Positions 1,464 through 20,680 of a DNA stretch of 64,000 bases are shown in pieces. How positions within the stretch are numbered: the stretch's first letter is position 1; each line of letters begins with the position of its first letter. The notes beneath the pieces were generated by a model. It was not told the DNA's origin. It worked only from the letters and a program-made list of their open reading frames with translations, and ran no database searches. Made by a program: the position numbers and the translations under genes. The stretch lies in assembly GCA_947478845.1 (NCBI GenBank), contig CANJXC010000015.1, positions 1 to 64,000 on the forward strand, in the 5' to 3' direction. The stretch comes from Spirochaetales bacterium. Lineage in GTDB: Bacteria; Spirochaetota; Spirochaetia; JABEVK01.

Positions 1464-2729
1464 ATGGCATCGTTCCTCCGCTTCTTCATCCTGGCCCTTC
1501 CGCCCCTTCTGGGTGTCACCACCTTTGCGGGTCCGGCCTTTTTGTTTGCCGCGGTTCTCTTGGCCCTCATGCTCGCCACGCAGTTACTGGCCACCTTAGT
1601 GCGCCCCCGCCTGCGGGAAACGCCTTTTCTGTGGGTGGTTATTGCCCAAACTGTGCTTTTGATTACTTTGGTGGATGCTCTGGTGGGTTGGCTTGCTCCA
1701 GGTATCCGGTCGGCTTGGGGCATTTATCTCAGCCTGTTGGCTCTCAGCCCCCTCGTGTTGATACTCCCTTCTGAGCAGCGAATCCAATTCAGGCCAGTGG
1801 GTCTCCTGGTCTCCATGCTCATCGCTTTGGGCCTCTTGCGGGAGTTGTTCGGCTTGGGTTCCCTAAGTCTGGTGCCGGGCTTGGTGTTTTGGAATGTGCC
1901 TTGGCTCCACGAGCATCCCCTTAAGGTACTCAACAGCACAGCTGGCGGGTATTTTCTGGCTGCGGCTGCCATCGTTTTGTTCCGGTGGATGACGCCCCTC
2001 GTACCAGCGATGATGCGCGAATCAGAGGTTGTCCCGCTGCCCCGCTTTAATCCCGATGCCATCCCAAGCGCCAAGCCAAAGCTGGAGCCCATTGCCGTGG
2101 TGCAGCCCAACGCTGAGAAACGTGACCTGCAACGTCCTGTAGAACTAGACAAGTCCGAGTGGGGTGAGAACCTAGAGGAAGTTGTCCTCAAGTTGCCCGG
2201 CGAACACGGTACCGAAAAGAAGCGTATCTTGGTCATCGGGTCTGGCAACGGCGAATTGGTGTATTACCTGGCCATTCTGGGACTCGAGGCTCAAAAAGAC
2301 AACAAGAGCTTCCAGTTCCGCGTGCGCGGCGTCGACAATTTTTCCACCCGGGTCGAGGCTGCGGCGAGGGGAGTCTATCGCGATAACCTTCTCGAGTTCA
2401 TTCCCAAAGACCTTAAGGAAGTTTGGCTCACCCGGGGAAAAGAAGGCGACCGCAATCTGCTGCGGGTGACCAACGAACCACGCTTGCACGTTCAGTTTGA
2501 GGTGGCAGACCTCCAGGCGGGGCAACTCACCCTTCCTCAACCGAGCCATTTGACCCTTCTGATGAAAGGCATCGCGCATGCGAGTGCCGAGAAAACCGCC
2601 CAGTTTTACCGCCTCATCGCCGACAACCTGGTGCCCGGAGGCGCCTTGATTATGCTCGCTCCCTTTGAACGCACCGCTATTCCCGAAGGGATGCGTCGGA
2701 CGGGTACTACCGTCTTCCGCAAAACATGA
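1464..2729 (+). CDS. Membrane protein with C-terminal SAM-methyltransferase/spermidine-synthase-like domain
   Basis: 421 aa. The first ~180 residues form about five hydrophobic helices; the C-terminal ~200 residues are soluble. The soluble part opens with RILVIGSGNGELVYYLAI (glycine motif GSGNG at 259-263), followed about 35 residues later by a VRGVDNF segment. This resembles the SAM-binding start of class I methyltransferases and membrane-linked spermidine synthase-like proteins. The substrate cannot be told from sequence. Its TGA overlaps the helicase ATG (ATGA), so the two are translationally coupled. The family call is moderate; the fold call is stronger. Confidence 0.65.
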   Translation: MASFLRFFILALPPLLGVTTFAGPAFLFAAVLLALMLATQLLATLVRPRLRETPFLWVVIAQTVLLITLVDALVGWLAPGIRSAWGIYLSLLALSPLVLILPSEQRIQFRPVGLLVSMLIALGLLRELFGLGSLSLVPGLVFWNVPWLHEHPLKVLNSTAGGYFLAAAAIVLFRWMTPLVPAMMRESEVVPLPRFNPDAIPSAKPKLEPIAVVQPNAEKRDLQRPVELDKSEWGENLEEVVLKLPGEHGTEKKRILVIGSGNGELVYYLAILGLEAQKDNKSFQFRVRGVDNFSTRVEAAARGVYRDNLLEFIPKDLKEVWLTRGKEGDRNLLRVTNEPRLHVQFEVADLQAGQLTLPQPSHLTLLMKGIAHASAEKTAQFYRLIADNLVPGGALIMLAPFERTAIPEGMRRTGTTVFRKT

Positions 2730-4393
2730 ACGTGACCGACACCGACGAGCGCCCCCTCATTGTGCAAAGCGACCATTCGCTGTTGCTGGAAGTCCATCAC
2801 CGGGCTTTCGAAGCGGCTCGGGGCGACATAGCCCCGTTCACCGAACTGGAGAAATCACCTGAGCACATCCACACCTACCGCATGACGCCCCTTTCACTTT
2901 GGAACGCGGCCTCTGCGGGTTTGGACGCTGCGTCGATTCTCGCCTTCCTGGACGCTCGCAGTCGCTACCCCGTGCCCGACAACGTGAGGTTTTTCGTCAC
3001 CGACACCCTGAGCCGTTGGGGAATGTTCACTCTCGAAGCTGGGGAAAGCCCCGATTTCCTCGTGCTCGGTATCCGCGACCCCCTGCTCCGCAGAGAAATC
3101 CAGGCCCAGCGCAAACTCGCGGCGTTCTTGGTTCCCCACGGAGAAACGTTTTTGGTGCCGCTGCTTCACCGGGGTACCCTCAAAAAAGAGATGCTTACCT
3201 TGGGCTATCCGGTGCAAGACCTCGCGCCACTCAAGGCAGGCGACCCGCTCGAGGTATCGCTACGCTCCCAAACCTTAGGTGGCGACACCATGCTGGTGCG
3301 TGGCTACCAGCTCGAGGCTGCAGCGGGTCTGCTCGGTCGGGGCCAGCCAGGCACCGGCTTCGGCACCATTGTGATGCCCTGTGGCTCGGGTAAAACCATT
3401 GTGGGCCTCGAGATCCTCTCGCGCCTGCAAACAAACACCCTGATTCTGACCACTAACGTGGCTGCCGTGCACCAATGGATCGACGAACTTCTCGACAAGA
3501 CCAGCCTCACGGCCGAGGAAATCGGTGAATACACCGGAGACAAAAAAGTCATACGCCCGGTTACTGTGGCCACCTACCAGGTGTTGGTGTGGCGGGAAGA
3601 CCGCGAAGCCGAGTTCCCCCACTTCCGCCTGTTCCGCGAACGCAACTGGGGCCTAATTATTTACGACGAGGTGCATTTGCTTCCTGCACCGGTGTTCCGG
3701 GTGACGGCCGAGTTACAGGCGCTTCGACGCGTGGGCCTTACGGCCACCTTGGTGCGCGAAGACGGCGCCGAAGGTGACGTGTTCAGCCTAGTCGGCCCGA
3801 AGCGTTTCGACGTGCCCTGGAAGGAATTGGAGGCCAAGGGCTGGATAGCCACCGCCGTTTGCACCGAAATCCGCCTCGATTTACCCGAGCACCAGCGCAT
3901 TCCCTACGCGGTGGCCGCCAAACGCGAGAAGTTCCGCATCGCTAGCGAAAACCCACTGAAAGAAGAGGTGGTGAAACAGCTCATCGATAATCACCGAGAG
4001 GATGCCATTTTGGTCATAGGGCAATATATCGACCAGCTCGAGCGGTTGTCGCACATCCTCAAGGCCCCGCTGATCACTGGTAGCACGCCTAACTCCCAGC
4101 GGGAAGTGCTGTACCAGCAGTTCCGTTCAGGCGCCGTCCGGGTGCTCGTGGTGAGCAAGGTGGCCAACTTCGCCATCAACTTGCCCGACGCGTCGATGGC
4201 CATCCAGGTGTCGGGCAGTTTTGGCAGCCGTCAGGAAGAAGCCCAACGCCTGGGCCGGATTCTTCGCCCCAAGGAACGCAACGCCTACTTTTACACGCTG
4301 GTCAGCCGCGCCACCAACGAAGAGGAGTTTTCGGCCCACCGCCAGAAGTTCCTCACCGAGCAAGGGTACAAGTATTCCATAGAGGTTTGGTGA
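2726..4393 (+). CDS. DNA repair helicase XPB (ERCC3-like, SF2)
   Basis: 555 aa, close to bacterial XPB such as the mycobacterial enzyme. The N-terminus (LIVQSDHSLLLEVHH, then ELEKSPEHIHTYRMTPLSLW) is the XPB-specific N-terminal module. Walker A PCGSGKT lies around 218-224, motif II is DEVH (314-317), motif III LTAT follows, and motif VI is QEEAQRLGRILRPK. It should be an ATP-dependent 3'-5' helicase/translocase acting in DNA repair; this is family knowledge. It starts inside the stop of the upstream gene (ATGA). A likely functional partner, the XPB-associated protein, lies at 8344-10338. Confidence 0.93.
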   Translation: MNVTDTDERPLIVQSDHSLLLEVHHRAFEAARGDIAPFTELEKSPEHIHTYRMTPLSLWNAASAGLDAASILAFLDARSRYPVPDNVRFFVTDTLSRWGMFTLEAGESPDFLVLGIRDPLLRREIQAQRKLAAFLVPHGETFLVPLLHRGTLKKEMLTLGYPVQDLAPLKAGDPLEVSLRSQTLGGDTMLVRGYQLEAAAGLLGRGQPGTGFGTIVMPCGSGKTIVGLEILSRLQTNTLILTTNVAAVHQWIDELLDKTSLTAEEIGEYTGDKKVIRPVTVATYQVLVWREDREAEFPHFRLFRERNWGLIIYDEVHLLPAPVFRVTAELQALRRVGLTATLVREDGAEGDVFSLVGPKRFDVPWKELEAKGWIATAVCTEIRLDLPEHQRIPYAVAAKREKFRIASENPLKEEVVKQLIDNHREDAILVIGQYIDQLERLSHILKAPLITGSTPNSQREVLYQQFRSGAVRVLVVSKVANFAINLPDASMAIQVSGSFGSRQEEAQRLGRILRPKERNAYFYTLVSRATNEEEFSAHRQKFLTEQGYKYSIEVW

Positions 4394-4407
4394 CGCCCCC
4401 CGGCTGA

Positions 4408-5737
<1,330 letters not shown>

Positions 5738-5760
<23 letters not shown>

Positions 5761-6943
5761 GGGCTTCCTCCTCAAAGGTCATGCGGAAGCGAAGTCCACC
5801 GGCGGGGTTGAGGTCTGCCGTCAGGTCGCCGCCGTGAAGCTGCAGAATCCGCCGGCAAAACGAAAGGCCGAGGCCGGTGCCACCTTCCTTGGTGGTGAAA
5901 GGCGGGTGGAAAAGCCGGTTCGGCAGTTGCGGGTCGAGCCCGGTCAGCGAGTCTTCCCACACCAGGGCTCTCCCGTCGGCCCAGACCTTCACCGTCACCG
6001 CAGCGGGTTCCGAGGCCTGCGCGCTGTTGACCAGCAGGTTGAACACCACCTGTTCCAGCAAAAGCCGGTCTGCCACCAGGGGCCACGACGCCGGCGCCTT
6101 CCAGTCCAGGCCCAGTGTCACCGGATAGGTTCTGGCAGCGACTCCCTGCACGAGAGTCGCCAGGTCGAGGTGTTCGGGATTCAGCTCGCCAAAGGCCGTC
6201 AGTTCCTTGAGGCGGTTGACCAGCACCAGCAGTTTGGCGGTTTCTTCGCTCAGCACCTCGGCGTTCTGACGGGCAAGCGGCGTGTTGAGAGCCCCCAAGT
6301 CACCGAGGTTGCTGGCCGCCAGACCCAGGGCGGTGAGAGGATTCTTGATCTGATGCGACAGAAACCGTGCGGTTTCTTGCCAACCCTGCAGCTTGCCCAG
6401 TTCTGAAAGCCGTCGTTCCCCTGCGGCCAACGCGTCGAGCAATTGGTTGAGCTCGTGCCCCAGATCCCTCAATTCGCGGGCCGCCAGCGGAGGCAACCGC
6501 GTGGTGCGGTCACCGGTTTGAAGGCGCACCACCGCCTGGTTGAGCTGACGCACCTGCTTCGAAAGCACCCGCGAGGCCAGAACGGCCGTCAGCACCAAGC
6601 CAAACAACTGAAGCACCGCCAGCAGAAGCAAGTTGCGAAGGCCGGGCACGAGCGCCTCGGTCGCCAGACTCCGGGCGGCCTGATCTTCGCGGCGAATGCC
6701 CTCGAGCCCGGCGGTCAGCGACTTCCACGCGTCGCCGGTGGCCCATTCTGGGTGAAGGCTTTCGAGTGTCCGCGCCGCCGCCCAAGCCTGGTCCAGGGGC
6801 GCCTCGACCGCCGCGGCTTTGGGCGACCGGAGGGCACTCACCAAGCCGAAAAAGCTGGCCGGGAGCACCGCGAGCCAGAGCAGGCCCTGAAAGCCCAGCA
6901 GCGCCACCAGCAACTGGGTTTGGAACGACCACGGACGCCTCAC
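5738..6943 (-). CDS. NtrY-like membrane sensor histidine kinase
   Basis: 401 aa from a GTG at 6943 that overlaps the stop of the preceding gene (GTGA). A longer reading back to 7249 would run through that gene in another frame and is rejected. Layout: transmembrane helix (~10-32), ~80-residue extracytoplasmic sensor, second helix (~105-125), HAMP-like linker, dimerisation domain with the histidine in FLSHQIKNPLTAL, then a HATPase domain with VFNLLVNSAQAS (N box), VWEDSLTGLD and [10 protein letters not shown]. The order and motifs match NtrY-type kinases. The partner is the adjacent NtrC-like regulator. The stimulus is unknown; the two small upstream proteins may take part in sensing. Confidence 0.9.
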
Positions 6944-7443
6944 TGGGGAATCTCGGCCCAGGTGCGGTAGCGGAGCGACAGCGAAACTTTTTGGTACCCC
7001 CACAGCGACTCCTGTTCGCTGGGCAGGCTGACAGCCACCGTCAGCGTTGTCGCCAAGGCCGACGAAAGGGCTTCTCGCGTGCCCAGTTTGGTCGGTGGCC
7101 AGGTTTGCCACTCGGTCAGCGCGCGGGACTGGTCGGCGGTCTCGAGCACGGTACCCTGACTGTCGGCCACGGCGAAAACCCTGTCCCAGGCGTGGTAGGT
7201 GATGCTCCGGCTGGCACTCACGCTTCGGTCTCCCCAAGTGGCCACCCACCGGAGGGTCAAGGTATTCCCCGCCAGCAGGTAGTCGCGGGCCGCGGGAGAC
7301 AATCCCCCCGAAAGTTCGGCGGTGACCAAGACCGCCTGGGGTGTTTTGAGCGCCGACGATTCCAGCCTAAGCCCCTGGGCGGGGATGACCAGGCCGGTCA
7401 GCACCGCCAGGCCCACCGCCATACTGCGAAGCCACTCTTCCAT
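6940..7443 (-). CDS. Secreted DUF4390-like protein
   Basis: 167 aa with an N-terminal signal-like hydrophobic stretch (about residues 5-24, ending PAQG), then a beta-rich domain with WDRVFAVAD and a C-terminal VSLSLRYRTW. Size, layout and position directly before an NtrY-like kinase match DUF4390 proteins, which are found beside NtrYX systems in other bacteria. Assignment is by resemblance and context. It starts one base after the preceding gene ends and its stop overlaps the kinase start, so it belongs to the same operon. An accessory role in signal perception at the membrane is inferred. Confidence 0.6.
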   Translation of the reverse strand: MEEWLRSMAVGLAVLTGLVIPAQGLRLESSALKTPQAVLVTAELSGGLSPAARDYLLAGNTLTLRWVATWGDRSVSASRSITYHAWDRVFAVADSQGTVLETADQSRALTEWQTWPPTKLGTREALSSALATTLTVAVSLPSEQESLWGYQKVSLSLRYRTWAEIPQ

Positions 7444-7444
7444 G

Positions 7445-8122
7445 TCAGGGCACCGTGTTGCCGAGGGCTGCCTGATACTTCAGGTACAGGTACTCTTCGT
7501 CCGAAGGTTTGTACAATTGGGCCACCCCGCCGATGATGCCGAACACTTGGCTGGAGTTGACCGCGACCAGATTGTCGGTCCACGGTTTGTTGGTGCCCAG
7601 ATTGAGGGCGATCATCGCTGCGGTTGTTACGAGGGGGGTCAAAATCCCCGTCCAGGCCGAGGTGAGCCTCTTGCCCTTGGCCTCGTCGGCCAAAGCCCAC
7701 AGCGAGGCGGCCGCCAGAAGGTTCTGCGTTTCGGCGTCGGTAGCCTGCAGCACGTCGCTGAAGCGCAAGCGGTAGTCGGTGGGCTTGGCGTTCCGCACCA
7801 GAAAGCCCGTCCCGAGCAGAACAGCACCGCCGGCACCCAGGCCAACCGTGGTCCACAGCTTCACGTCAGGGTCGAGCGCAGTCCCGGCTGAAGACTTCGA
7901 CAAGTCGTCGCCCAGGTACCACAGCCCCAGCGCGCCAGCCCCGACCACGGCACCCAAGCCGTAGAGCACACCAGCCGCCGCTTTGGAGTCACCCGCGTGG
8001 CGTTCCTGCTCCTGGATGTAATTCATCAGGATGCGGTAAGCGATTTGCGGCGAGTCGCCCGACTGGGCAGGGAGCAGGGCCGAACCAGCGGTGAGCACCG
8101 CCAAGACCAAAAAGTATTTCAT
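7445..8122 (-). CDS. Unrecognised membrane protein heading the sigma-54 two-component operon
   Basis: 225 aa from the ATG at 8122, which has a clear GGAGG site; an upstream extension to 8266 has no support. A signal peptide (MKYFLVLAVLTAGSALLPAQ) is followed by a short acidic/basic region (IAYRILMNYIQEQERHAGDSK) and two glycine-rich hydrophobic segments (GVLYGLGAVVGAGALGLWYL and TVGLGAGGAVLLGTGFLV). A further hydrophobic stretch and a soluble tail with YLYLKYQAAL follow. I do not recognise a family. First gene of the operon, probably envelope-associated. Confidence 0.6.
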   Translation of the reverse strand: MKYFLVLAVLTAGSALLPAQSGDSPQIAYRILMNYIQEQERHAGDSKAAAGVLYGLGAVVGAGALGLWYLGDDLSKSSAGTALDPDVKLWTTVGLGAGGAVLLGTGFLVRNAKPTDYRLRFSDVLQATDAETQNLLAAASLWALADEAKGKRLTSAWTGILTPLVTTAAMIALNLGTNKPWTDNLVAVNSSQVFGIIGGVAQLYKPSDEEYLYLKYQAALGNTVP

Positions 8123-8141
8123 GATTCCTCCACTCCCTGCT

Positions 8142-8159
8142 ATGCAAGGGCAATGCCAA
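8142..8159 (-). promoter_or_regulatory. Sigma-54 (-24/-12) promoter
   Basis: On the minus strand the site reads TTGGCA, six bases, TTGCAT. The invariant GG and GC are 12 bases apart, as the sigma-54 consensus requires; about 12 of 14 defined positions agree. Start of transcription would be near 8132, leaving a ~10-base leader with the GGAGG site for the ATG at 8122. The operon encodes a sigma-54 activator, so autoregulation is likely. Confidence 0.72.
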
Positions 8160-8255
8160 TCTGGCACGAAAAAACTCAAGCCCTTTTCCAGAAAAGACTT
8201 ACCTCGGATATCGTGAAGAACACGGGTCGCACCCGCCTCAAACTCGCGCCCAGAA

Positions 8256-8294
8256 CTATCCCCCAAGATAGCCTCAACCTATCAATTGCGATAT
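8256..8294. promoter_or_regulatory. Tandem candidate activator-binding sites (TATC-N6-GATA twice)
   Basis: Two inverted repeats share half-sites: CTATCccccaaGATAG (8256-8271) and TATCaattgcGATA (8280-8293). Their centres are 23 bp apart, about two helical turns. They lie roughly 131 and 154 bp upstream of the predicted sigma-54 start, the usual place for enhancer sites. Binding by the NtrC-like regulator is inferred. Confidence 0.5.
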
Positions 8295-8331
8295 GGCGCG
8301 GTGACCCAAAGATCTTTATGCCGTTTTCAGG

Positions 8332-8337
8332 TATGAT
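8332..8337 (+). promoter_or_regulatory. -10 box with leaderless spacing
   Basis: TATGAT ends six bases before the ATG at 8344, and no Shine-Dalgarno sequence is present. No good -35 box is seen at 17 bp, so the promoter may need help; the nearer TATC-GATA repeat ends about 40 bp upstream. Confidence 0.45.
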
Positions 8338-8343
8338 ACCCTA

Positions 8344-10338
8344 ATGGACTCCCGAGAAGACTGGAAGAAATTCCTGCTGACCCTACCTGATGCGGCCTTT
8401 TTTTCGCTCGCCCGCCACTATTTGGGGGAGCTGCAGACTCCCTTCACGAAGCACCGCATTATTGTCGACCTCCAGGCTGCTCTGGCCAAACCTGAGTGGA
8501 AACAAGCGCGCCGCGACCTGCTGACCGACGAAGACATCGACCTCCTGACGGCCATACAAATTCTGGGTTCACCCTCGGCGGAACAGGCGGCTTCCTTTTT
8601 GGGCTGGAGTGCTCCCCGACTGGCCTCAAGGTCACTGAACTTGCAAGAGCGCTTCCTCATCTACCCGCGTGTCGCTGGTAAGTCTACCGAGCTCTGCCTC
8701 AGCCCGTTGGTCACCGAAGACGATCAACTGATGGGTTGGCTCCACCCGGGCCGCCTTTACCCCTCGGTGGCAGCCACCGAAGCCACAGCAACCACACCGT
8801 TTCTCTCCGAAGGTACTCTTCTGGCTCTGCTGAGCTTCCTGCTGGAAGTTCCGCTCGAAAAAACTGCCGCCGGAGCTTGGAAAAAGAAGCCGCGTCAGGA
8901 GTTTCTGGAGCGCTTTTCGGCCCTTGGCGACGCGGAAGGTATTCCTCGCGCCGACTTGTTGATGCATACGGCCGAGCGCTTGGGCTTAGTGATTTGGCAA
9001 GACGGAAAAACATCTCCTGTATGGAGTTACTGGGAAGATTTCCGCACGCTTCCCCGCGCAGGCCGTTTGGCGCTGCTTTGGATGGCAGCCGCGTACCCCA
9101 CTCAAGCACTCCTGTTTGAGGCCGCGCGCTGGCTCGGCCCTCTGGTGGCCTTGCTACCCGTGGGCCGAGCGTTTGGTCTTACCACCCTGATACGCCTGAG
9201 CTCCCGCATCATAGCTCTTGGTGGTGCCAAAGAGCGCGATGCCCTGTTCCGCTCGTGGATTCGCTGGGGCCTGCTTCTTCCAGGCCCGGTGGCCGATACC
9301 TACCTGCCTTCCCCCCTCCTGCGTCGCTCCGAAACCACCGCAGAAGGGGCCTGGGTGCAGGCCAACTTTGAGCTGCGCCTGCCCTGCGATGTCGACTTTG
9401 CCAAAGCCTGGCCTGCCGCGCTTGCCTCCCGTCTAGTCCGCTGGGACCGAACCATCCTTTGGGAACTGAGTAAACTCCCGGTCAAACGCGCCATGGCCCG
9501 CGGCGTAACCGCAAAAGATCTGGAAACAGCGCTTGAAGGACTCACCGGGGTTGCGCTCACCCAAAACCTGCGCATCAGCCTTCAAGAATGGGAAAAAGAG
9601 TTCCAAAGCCTGCGATTGTGGAAGGGCTTGGTGCTGACGGTGGGCGAAGACCGACGCCACCTGATTGAACACACCGACGGCTTCGCCAAGGCTATTTTGC
9701 ACCAGTTTGTGCCTGGTGTTTGGCTAGTCCGCGAGGATCTTTTGGCCGAATGGAGCCGTGAGCTGGAGCAAAAAGGCCTGCCTTCGCTGCCCGAACCACT
9801 CACCGGCGGCAGCGAGGCCGACTGGGGAAGGCCTTGGACGTTCGCAGGCTGGCATCAGGAGGCCACCGCAGACCCGGGGCCCCTCCCTCCGTTGGCAGAA
9901 GCGCCTCCCTTCGAACCTCGCTCGACCGACCTGCCAGAAATGGTGCGCGCCTTGCTTAAAAAGTTAGAATCGCTCCCCCTCGGAGTGGACGAAAAGGAAG
10001 AATGGAAGGCCCGTATTTTGCGGCGCATTGTGCTCGAAGAGGCCCAGCTGAAGCACCCCTTGAGCCGTGGCGAGCGTTTTGAGGCCAAAGGACTCGACTT
10101 TGCGGGGAAAATCCGCTTGGCCGAGCAGGCTTTGGGTACCCCCACCGACCTCTTGGAAGTCAGCTACCGGGCCGACGACGGAACTTCTGCCTCGGCGCTG
10201 CTCCGTCCGGTCAGGCTTGAAAAAAGTGGCCCCGAAACCATTCTGCACGCCGAAAGGGTAGATACCAACCTCCCCTTTCAGGCTTGGATAAGCCGTCTGA
10301 GCCAGGTGAAGAAAATCCGGGGCAGCCTGCTGTTTTGA
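8344..10338 (+). CDS. XPB-associated protein (helicase XPB/Ssl2 N-terminal-like)
   Basis: 664 aa, soluble, rich in Leu, Trp and charged residues, with no Walker motifs. The opening (FLLTLPDAAFFSLARHYLGE, then DLLTDEDIDLLTAIQILGS) and overall size resemble the large helicase-associated proteins encoded beside XPB in mycobacteria (Rv0862c type). The C-terminal ~100 residues (LLEVSYRADDG, ASALLRPVRLEKSG, ILHAERVDTNLPFQAW) look like a small WYL-like beta domain. Function is not known; a role with the XPB helicase at 2726-4393 is inferred. The start is the only suitable ATG and appears leaderless. The next gene starts within the stop codon. Confidence 0.6.
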   Translation: MDSREDWKKFLLTLPDAAFFSLARHYLGELQTPFTKHRIIVDLQAALAKPEWKQARRDLLTDEDIDLLTAIQILGSPSAEQAASFLGWSAPRLASRSLNLQERFLIYPRVAGKSTELCLSPLVTEDDQLMGWLHPGRLYPSVAATEATATTPFLSEGTLLALLSFLLEVPLEKTAAGAWKKKPRQEFLERFSALGDAEGIPRADLLMHTAERLGLVIWQDGKTSPVWSYWEDFRTLPRAGRLALLWMAAAYPTQALLFEAARWLGPLVALLPVGRAFGLTTLIRLSSRIIALGGAKERDALFRSWIRWGLLLPGPVADTYLPSPLLRRSETTAEGAWVQANFELRLPCDVDFAKAWPAALASRLVRWDRTILWELSKLPVKRAMARGVTAKDLETALEGLTGVALTQNLRISLQEWEKEFQSLRLWKGLVLTVGEDRRHLIEHTDGFAKAILHQFVPGVWLVREDLLAEWSRELEQKGLPSLPEPLTGGSEADWGRPWTFAGWHQEATADPGPLPPLAEAPPFEPRSTDLPEMVRALLKKLESLPLGVDEKEEWKARILRRIVLEEAQLKHPLSRGERFEAKGLDFAGKIRLAEQALGTPTDLLEVSYRADDGTSASALLRPVRLEKSGPETILHAERVDTNLPFQAWISRLSQVKKIRGSLLF

Positions 10339-19780: not shown

Positions 19781-20680
19781 CTAGGTTCCGTTCGATGTGC
19801 GCACCGCTGCGCTGATCACTTCCGAATCAAAACCCTCGGCCACCTTACCCGACTTGGCGTACACATAGAGCGCAGTATTGAACACGGTGTTCGCCACCGA
19901 AAATACAAGGGCGGTCAAAAGAAGCAGCAGGATTCCCACCCCAACCGCTGCCACGGCGCCAACCAAGTTTGCAGGTTCATAGAGACTGTAGGCACTGCCA
20001 GCAGTGGCCAAAATCAACAGCAGGTAGGTCAGGAACTGAACCAGTCCAAGGCCGATGCCTTTCACAAGACTTTCGCCCCAGGTCTTACCGATGACTTCCA
20101 CGGAACGCTTGATGGCCGCGAACGGACCTTTGTCTTCGTAGACGAGAACCGGGATAACAAAAAGTGTCAAAACGGTCCAAGCCATTCCGAGAATCCCGGT
20201 CACCGCGTTACCAATAAACTCACCCACCTTTCCCAGTTTCTGTGTGGCCTGTTGAAGCAAGTTCAGGACCAACCCAACCGTAGCCGACACCAGGCTCCAT
20301 TGAAGGATACGAAACCACCGCGAGAAGGCAAAAGCTAGGCTTTGCATAAAAGTGGCATTTCCGCCCTCGAAACGCGTTTTGGCGGTAAACACCACACAAA
20401 CGTTGAAAAAAGTGGCAATAAAGGCCAGCCCGATGTAGGTGACAAAGAGGCAGCCAAGTTGCACCAAGAGCTGGGTTTCCTCGCTCCAATGGGTATCGGT
20501 GAGGTAGGGCAGCAACGCCGGATAAACCATGGCCACGGCGAACATTGCCGAAAAAAAGAACGAGAGCAAAGCGAAGATCAGGAGTTCTTTATCTTTGTTG
20601 ATAACGGTGAAAGTAAGCTTGGTCAATTTCCAACTGCGACGGAAAACGTCAATAGAAAAACAGCTTGGTGCACACCCCAA
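19781..20680 (-). CDS. DUF6159-like multi-pass membrane protein
   Basis: 299 aa if started at the TTG at 20680. About six hydrophobic helices, with charged loops such as VYEDKGPFAAIKRSVEVIGKTWGE, the hallmark of DUF6159 proteins. Family members start around FRRSWKLTK, which here is codon 12. A promoter TTGACA-N17-CAAGCT overlaps the first codons, so translation may really begin at the ATT at 20653 (codon 10). No other ATG, GTG or TTG in frame fits. Function of the family is unknown. It diverges from the PAS kinase gene. Confidence 0.72.
   Translation of the reverse strand: MGCAPSCFSIDVFRRSWKLTKLTFTVINKDKELLIFALLSFFFSAMFAVAMVYPALLPYLTDTHWSEETQLLVQLGCLFVTYIGLAFIATFFNVCVVFTAKTRFEGGNATFMQSLAFAFSRWFRILQWSLVSATVGLVLNLLQQATQKLGKVGEFIGNAVTGILGMAWTVLTLFVIPVLVYEDKGPFAAIKRSVEVIGKTWGESLVKGIGLGLVQFLTYLLLILATAGSAYSLYEPANLVGAVAAVGVGILLLLLTALVFSVANTVFNTALYVYAKSGKVAEGFDSEVISAAVRTSNGT

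Follow-up and report, generated by a model that had tools for sequence, protein, structure and literature searches.

ZraPSR (HydG) of Escherichia coli is a sigma-54 envelope-stress two-component system whose NtrC-family activator drives its own genes and that of a periplasmic accessory protein, and has very few targets besides (PMC7657598). In Bordetella, the DUF4390 protein PlrP has been reported to be a periplasmic third component that holds back the phosphatase activity of PlrS, a kinase of the NtrY family (PMC13001219). As a broad survey already noted sigma-54 promoters at ntrY-ntrX and the self-regulation of ZraR (PMC12316311), the principle of a two-component operon that drives itself through sigma-54 is known. 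Here we compare with these systems a four-gene operon found in a window of 64 kb (the whole stretch of DNA that was analyzed) from the genome of a Spirochaetales bacterium. Like ZraPSR, it has an NtrC-family sigma-54 regulator together with putative envelope accessory proteins, and its architecture and sites fit the self-activated type. Distant relatives have the same operon with the same sites, and elsewhere in their genomes the paired sites are almost absent; the operon is thus very probably a sensor circuit that switches itself, activated by its own sigma-54 activator. The features of the locus, from the distal site to the last gene, are as follows.

8280–8293, minus strand: distal enhancer palindrome (putative) TATCGCAATTGATA, center at −154.5, 23 bp from the proximal center
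8257–8270, minus strand: promoter-proximal enhancer palindrome (putative) TATCTTGGGGGATA, center at −131.5, the pair being conserved in relatives
8142–8159, minus strand: sigma-54 (−24/−12) promoter TTGGCATTGCCCTTGCAT, an exact box with GG at 8157–8156, GC at 8145–8144 and a predicted start at ~8132; five other genomes have equivalents upstream of g1
8127–8131, minus strand: ribosome-binding site GGAGG ahead of g1, read from the sequence
7445–8122, minus strand: g1, a small membrane protein of 225 aa with a signal-peptide-like N-terminus; orthologues head the operon in five other genomes
6940–7443, minus strand: g2, an exported or membrane-anchored protein of 167 aa, remotely DUF4390 (PlrP)-like by alignment and by the PF14334 matches of orthologues
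5738–6943, minus strand: NtrY-like histidine kinase with two membrane spans, an outer loop of ~75 residues, HAMP and the H-box FLSHQIKNPL
4408–5760, minus strand: NtrX-like response regulator with receiver, sigma-54 activator AAA+ and Fis-type HTH; ATG at 5760 with AGGAGG

An earlier note on this DNA had described an operon of four genes with an NtrY/NtrC pair at its end, and both the gene order and the pair types are correct. The −24/−12 box of correct spacing that it placed before the operon is exact at 8159–8142 on the minus strand, and its two TATC-N6-GATA sites, said to have centers 23 bp apart at 131 and 154 bp from the predicted start, were found exactly so.

In E. coli, zraP is divergent from zraSR, whereas the spirochaete g1, g2, kinase and regulator genes stand in one operon. 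Further differences from ZraPSR are that g1 and g2 were not recognized as ZraP by the libraries searched, that the spirochaete regulator is closer to NtrX, and that its putative binding site differs. We regard ZraPSR as the best functional analogue: by this analogy the operon would work like ZraPSR, but we do not file it as a member. The Bordetella PlrP-PlrS-PlrR cluster is similar in that a DUF4390-type gene directly precedes the NtrY-like kinase gene, with the same 4-bp overlap, and is followed by an NtrX-like regulator (PMC13001219). The Plr cluster differs in having rsmB ahead of it and internal promoters, and sigma factors go unmentioned in the text of that paper (PMC13001219). PlrS has a PDC domain where the spirochaete kinase has its short loop, and the spirochaete operon has g1 as an extra gene. 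The likeness to NtrYX resides in the regulator, whose best NCBIfam match among all models is NtrX (NF051870); at 370 bits it is well under the equivalog cut-off of 600 bits, and the protein is called NtrX-like only. Its best solved structure is 5m7n, a nitrogen assimilation regulatory protein. Unlike NtrYX, it has a recognition helix and a putative binding site of its own.

The regulator has the receiver, Sigma54_activat AAA+ and Fis-type HTH domains of NtrC-family bEBPs, with GSFSGA as a variant of the GAFTGA loop. The orthologous regulators have GAFTGA, GSFTGA and, in one orthologue, GAYTGA; the GSFSGA and GAYTGA loops are conservative changes but are off the GAFTGA consensus. The H-box of the kinase is of the NtrY/NtrB-like type, and the kinase gene begins at a GTG, with a 4-bp overlap onto the g2 stop. 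The window copy of g2 matched no database family, PF14334 included. DUF4390 (PF14334) is the top family for g2 orthologues, with scores of 21.4 and 20.0 bits (E 1.9e-4 and 5.2e-4), and because both are below the curated cut-off of 27 bits we name g2 DUF4390-like, not a DUF4390 member. True DUF4390 genes were sought in the fetched operon loci and none was found; the g2 gene lies directly 5′ of the NtrY-like kinase gene, as in DUF4390/PlrP clusters. For the window copy of g1, no Pfam or NCBIfam family was matched, and a search against solved structures was without match.

The promoter box is the sole exact TTGGCA-N6-TTGCAT in the 64-kb window and in the entire 2.99-Mb genome. Thirteen further sites in the genome match with one mismatch, and since the total of 14 compares with 6 for the control pattern, the box by itself is just modestly enriched. 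The predicted 5′ leader of the operon is short (~10 nt), and a scan of 4350–8400 for sigma-70 promoters gave no match. The rpoN gene, the presence of which the earlier note took as a check on its proposal, was found on contig 17 of the window's genome, the genome that was searched (E 8e-46). In the rpoN region (contig 17, 24000–40000) there are two NtrC-type regulators with kinases nearby, one of them NtrX-like with 41% identity to the operon's regulator.

Both palindromes ahead of the operon are exact TATC-N6-GATA sites, and a third in the window lies at 20590, far from any −24/−12 promoter. Single palindromes are uninformative because their genome count of 17 is at background (14 for the control). 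The pair is found just once in the 2.99-Mb genome, so that the genome search for paired sites near −24/−12 promoters, which had been proposed in the same note, leads to this operon only. When the 300-bp leader was shuffled 20,000 times, zero trials contained two exact sites and zero contained a near-exact pair 20–24 bp apart. Only the operon pair, among the 17 genome palindromes, has a −24/−12 box scoring 11 within 40–260 bp downstream; the best score downstream of the others is 10, with off-consensus letters.

Five further genomes of the class have the order g1-g2-kinase-regulator; they belong to four other families and have the operon at unrelated loci. The holders (the window genome G000 with G280, G115, G177, G362 and G140) amount to 6 of the 395 class genomes and represent five genera and five families. 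G280, G115, G177 and G362 were found via weak g2 matches in the 395 class genomes, and G140 was added by a g1 profile; a final search across these 395 genomes gave no further clear holder. As G115 and G177 share a genus, the set contains five independent lineages at most. The g1 orthologues have 24–36% identity to the window copy, and the regulator, when queried against 84,980 genomes, returned only generic NtrC-family relatives of ≤46% identity. G105 was rejected as a holder, its weak g1 match having no adjoining kinase or regulator. The g1 homologues of family f8 were rejected as operon members as well, with no such kinase near them and no TATC-N6-GATA sites; at the three loci concerned (~1420–2140) they sit after a phosphatase-like gene. 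Genus and family mates of the window's genome lack the operon at the corresponding position, where the gap contains other genes or nothing, and the footprint is therefore drawn from the distant holders.

The −24/−12 boxes upstream of g1 are TTGGCACGAATACTGCT in G280, GTGGCATAATTATTGCT in G115, GTGGTATAATTTTTGCT in G177, ATGGCACGCTTTTTGCT in G362 and ATGGCATGAGATTTGCA in G140. All six operon genomes have the −24 GG and the −12 GC at an interval of 10 bp, and the boxes of the six leaders score 9–12 of 13 consensus positions. Each of these leaders also has two or three TATC-N6-GATA sites upstream of g1. The pair spacing is 22 or 23 bp in G000, G115, G177, G362 and G140 (one G140 site with one mismatch), and the G280 leader presents three tandem palindromes at 15- and 17-bp steps (6634–6679 of the fetched locus). 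Between the outer two of the G280 palindromes there are 32 bp, or about three turns. The distance from the sites to the predicted start ranges from 84 to 210 bp, and the promoter-proximal centers from −83.5 to −187.5; this combination of constant spacing with variable promoter distance is as expected of an enhancer. We searched five whole genomes for the exact pair pattern and obtained one match per genome in four of the five, each at this operon, compared with zero matches for the reversed control pattern in the same five. G280 gives no exact-pair match because its sites differ in spacing. Conservation in relatives, on which the earlier note had let its proposal depend, is thus seen for both the box and the repeats, which are kept in all five other holders.

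The operon regulators form one clade (support 100/99). All four regulators with complete ends (G000, G280, G362 and G140) have PNNLSR(K/R)L as their recognition helix, which reads PNNLSRKL in the window copy; the DNA-binding ends of the G115 and G177 regulators could not be read because the genes run off their contigs. This helix is absent from ~65 fetched NtrC-family relatives, and the genome's own NtrX-like paralogue has ASNLHTKL instead. We infer that the distinctive helix ties the palindrome motif to the operon's own regulator, although a palindrome pair would fit any dimeric regulator. The palindromes might then be the operators of another, unlinked factor, for example a repressor, that controls the same operon in all of these genomes. 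We consider this improbable. The spacing is fixed while the promoter distance varies by 100 bp, unlike what an occluding repressor would show, the pair is essentially confined to this operon, where it occurs together with the regulator, and the recognition helix of the regulators is both conserved and distinctive. The six-genome footprint, the operon-exclusive pair and the common helix instead favor the activator as the probable driver of its own operon, as had been suggested from the window alone.

On its upstream side the operon faces a divergent gene, and it is flanked by an XPB-like helicase gene and the gene of the XPB partner.

8344–10338, plus strand: XPB-partner gene (Helicase_C_3-like), divergent neighbor, not judged part of the circuit
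2726–4393, plus strand: XPB-like helicase, neighbor only; it adjoins or lies near the homologue of the 8344 gene in other family members

The palindromes stand 50–87 bp ahead of the start codon of the 8344 gene, and the earlier note held that this XPB-associated gene could be co-controlled. An enhancer between the divergent genes that also controlled the XPB partner would tie the circuit to DNA repair, a reading that we find slightly less probable still than an unlinked factor. No −24/−12 box faces the 8344 gene, and the other operon holders have a different upstream neighbor; the suggested co-control is not upheld. Two relatives from the same family have XPB and its partner as near neighbors with no such operon in between: the two genes are 20 bp apart in one genome and separated in the second by a gap of ~400 bp that contains a small ORF on the opposite strand. 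The corresponding gap in a genus mate is filled by unrelated genes, dehydrogenase-like and AraC-type. In the window it is the sensor operon, on the opposite strand, that separates XPB from the partner (4394–8343). The operon is specific to the window's lineage at this place, and the position of the 8344 gene beside it looks accidental, a result of the operon's location between XPB and the partner gene. As for chance matches, which the background frequency of single TATC-N6-GATA sites and the commonness of near-consensus −24/−12 boxes might suggest, this reading is refuted for practical purposes, as the joint arrangement recurs before the same operon in six genomes and in shuffled leaders the frequency of these pairs is 0 to 1e-4 per genome.

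In the self-activating circuit that we favor, the kinase would phosphorylate the NtrX-like regulator, and the envelope proteins g1 and g2 would probably tune the kinase activity. Regulator dimers would occupy the two TATC-N6-GATA palindromes, which are separated by about two helical turns, an ATPase ring would assemble there, and by DNA looping the sigma-54 RNA polymerase would be opened at 8159–8142. Expression of g1, g2, the kinase and the regulator would rise together, in a positive loop devoted to one operon. The observed basis of this model comprises the DNA elements, which are conserved and located almost exclusively at the operon, together with rpoN and the four-gene orthology. More tentatively, and with somewhat less than even confidence, we propose that the sigma-54 loop is dedicated to what is essentially one target, and that g1, found only in this system and a few relatives, and the DUF4390/PlrP-like g2 may, as co-transcribed envelope proteins, set the phosphatase state of the kinase. 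If this is true, NtrYX systems outside Proteobacteria would also have a third component of the PlrP type, with g1 as a possible fourth component; g2 itself is a hint of DUF4390-like kinase modulators outside that group. The operon would define a near single-target positive-feedback sigma-54 switch, and it supplies a binding motif and a circuit that can be tested in a two-component family that appears undescribed.

Two observations on the surrounding DNA may be added. The gap between XPB and its partner could be an insertion hot spot. Right before the 8344 start codon, GGTATGATACC at 8331–8341 is a short palindrome, which is a possible extended −10 or operator belonging to that divergent gene.
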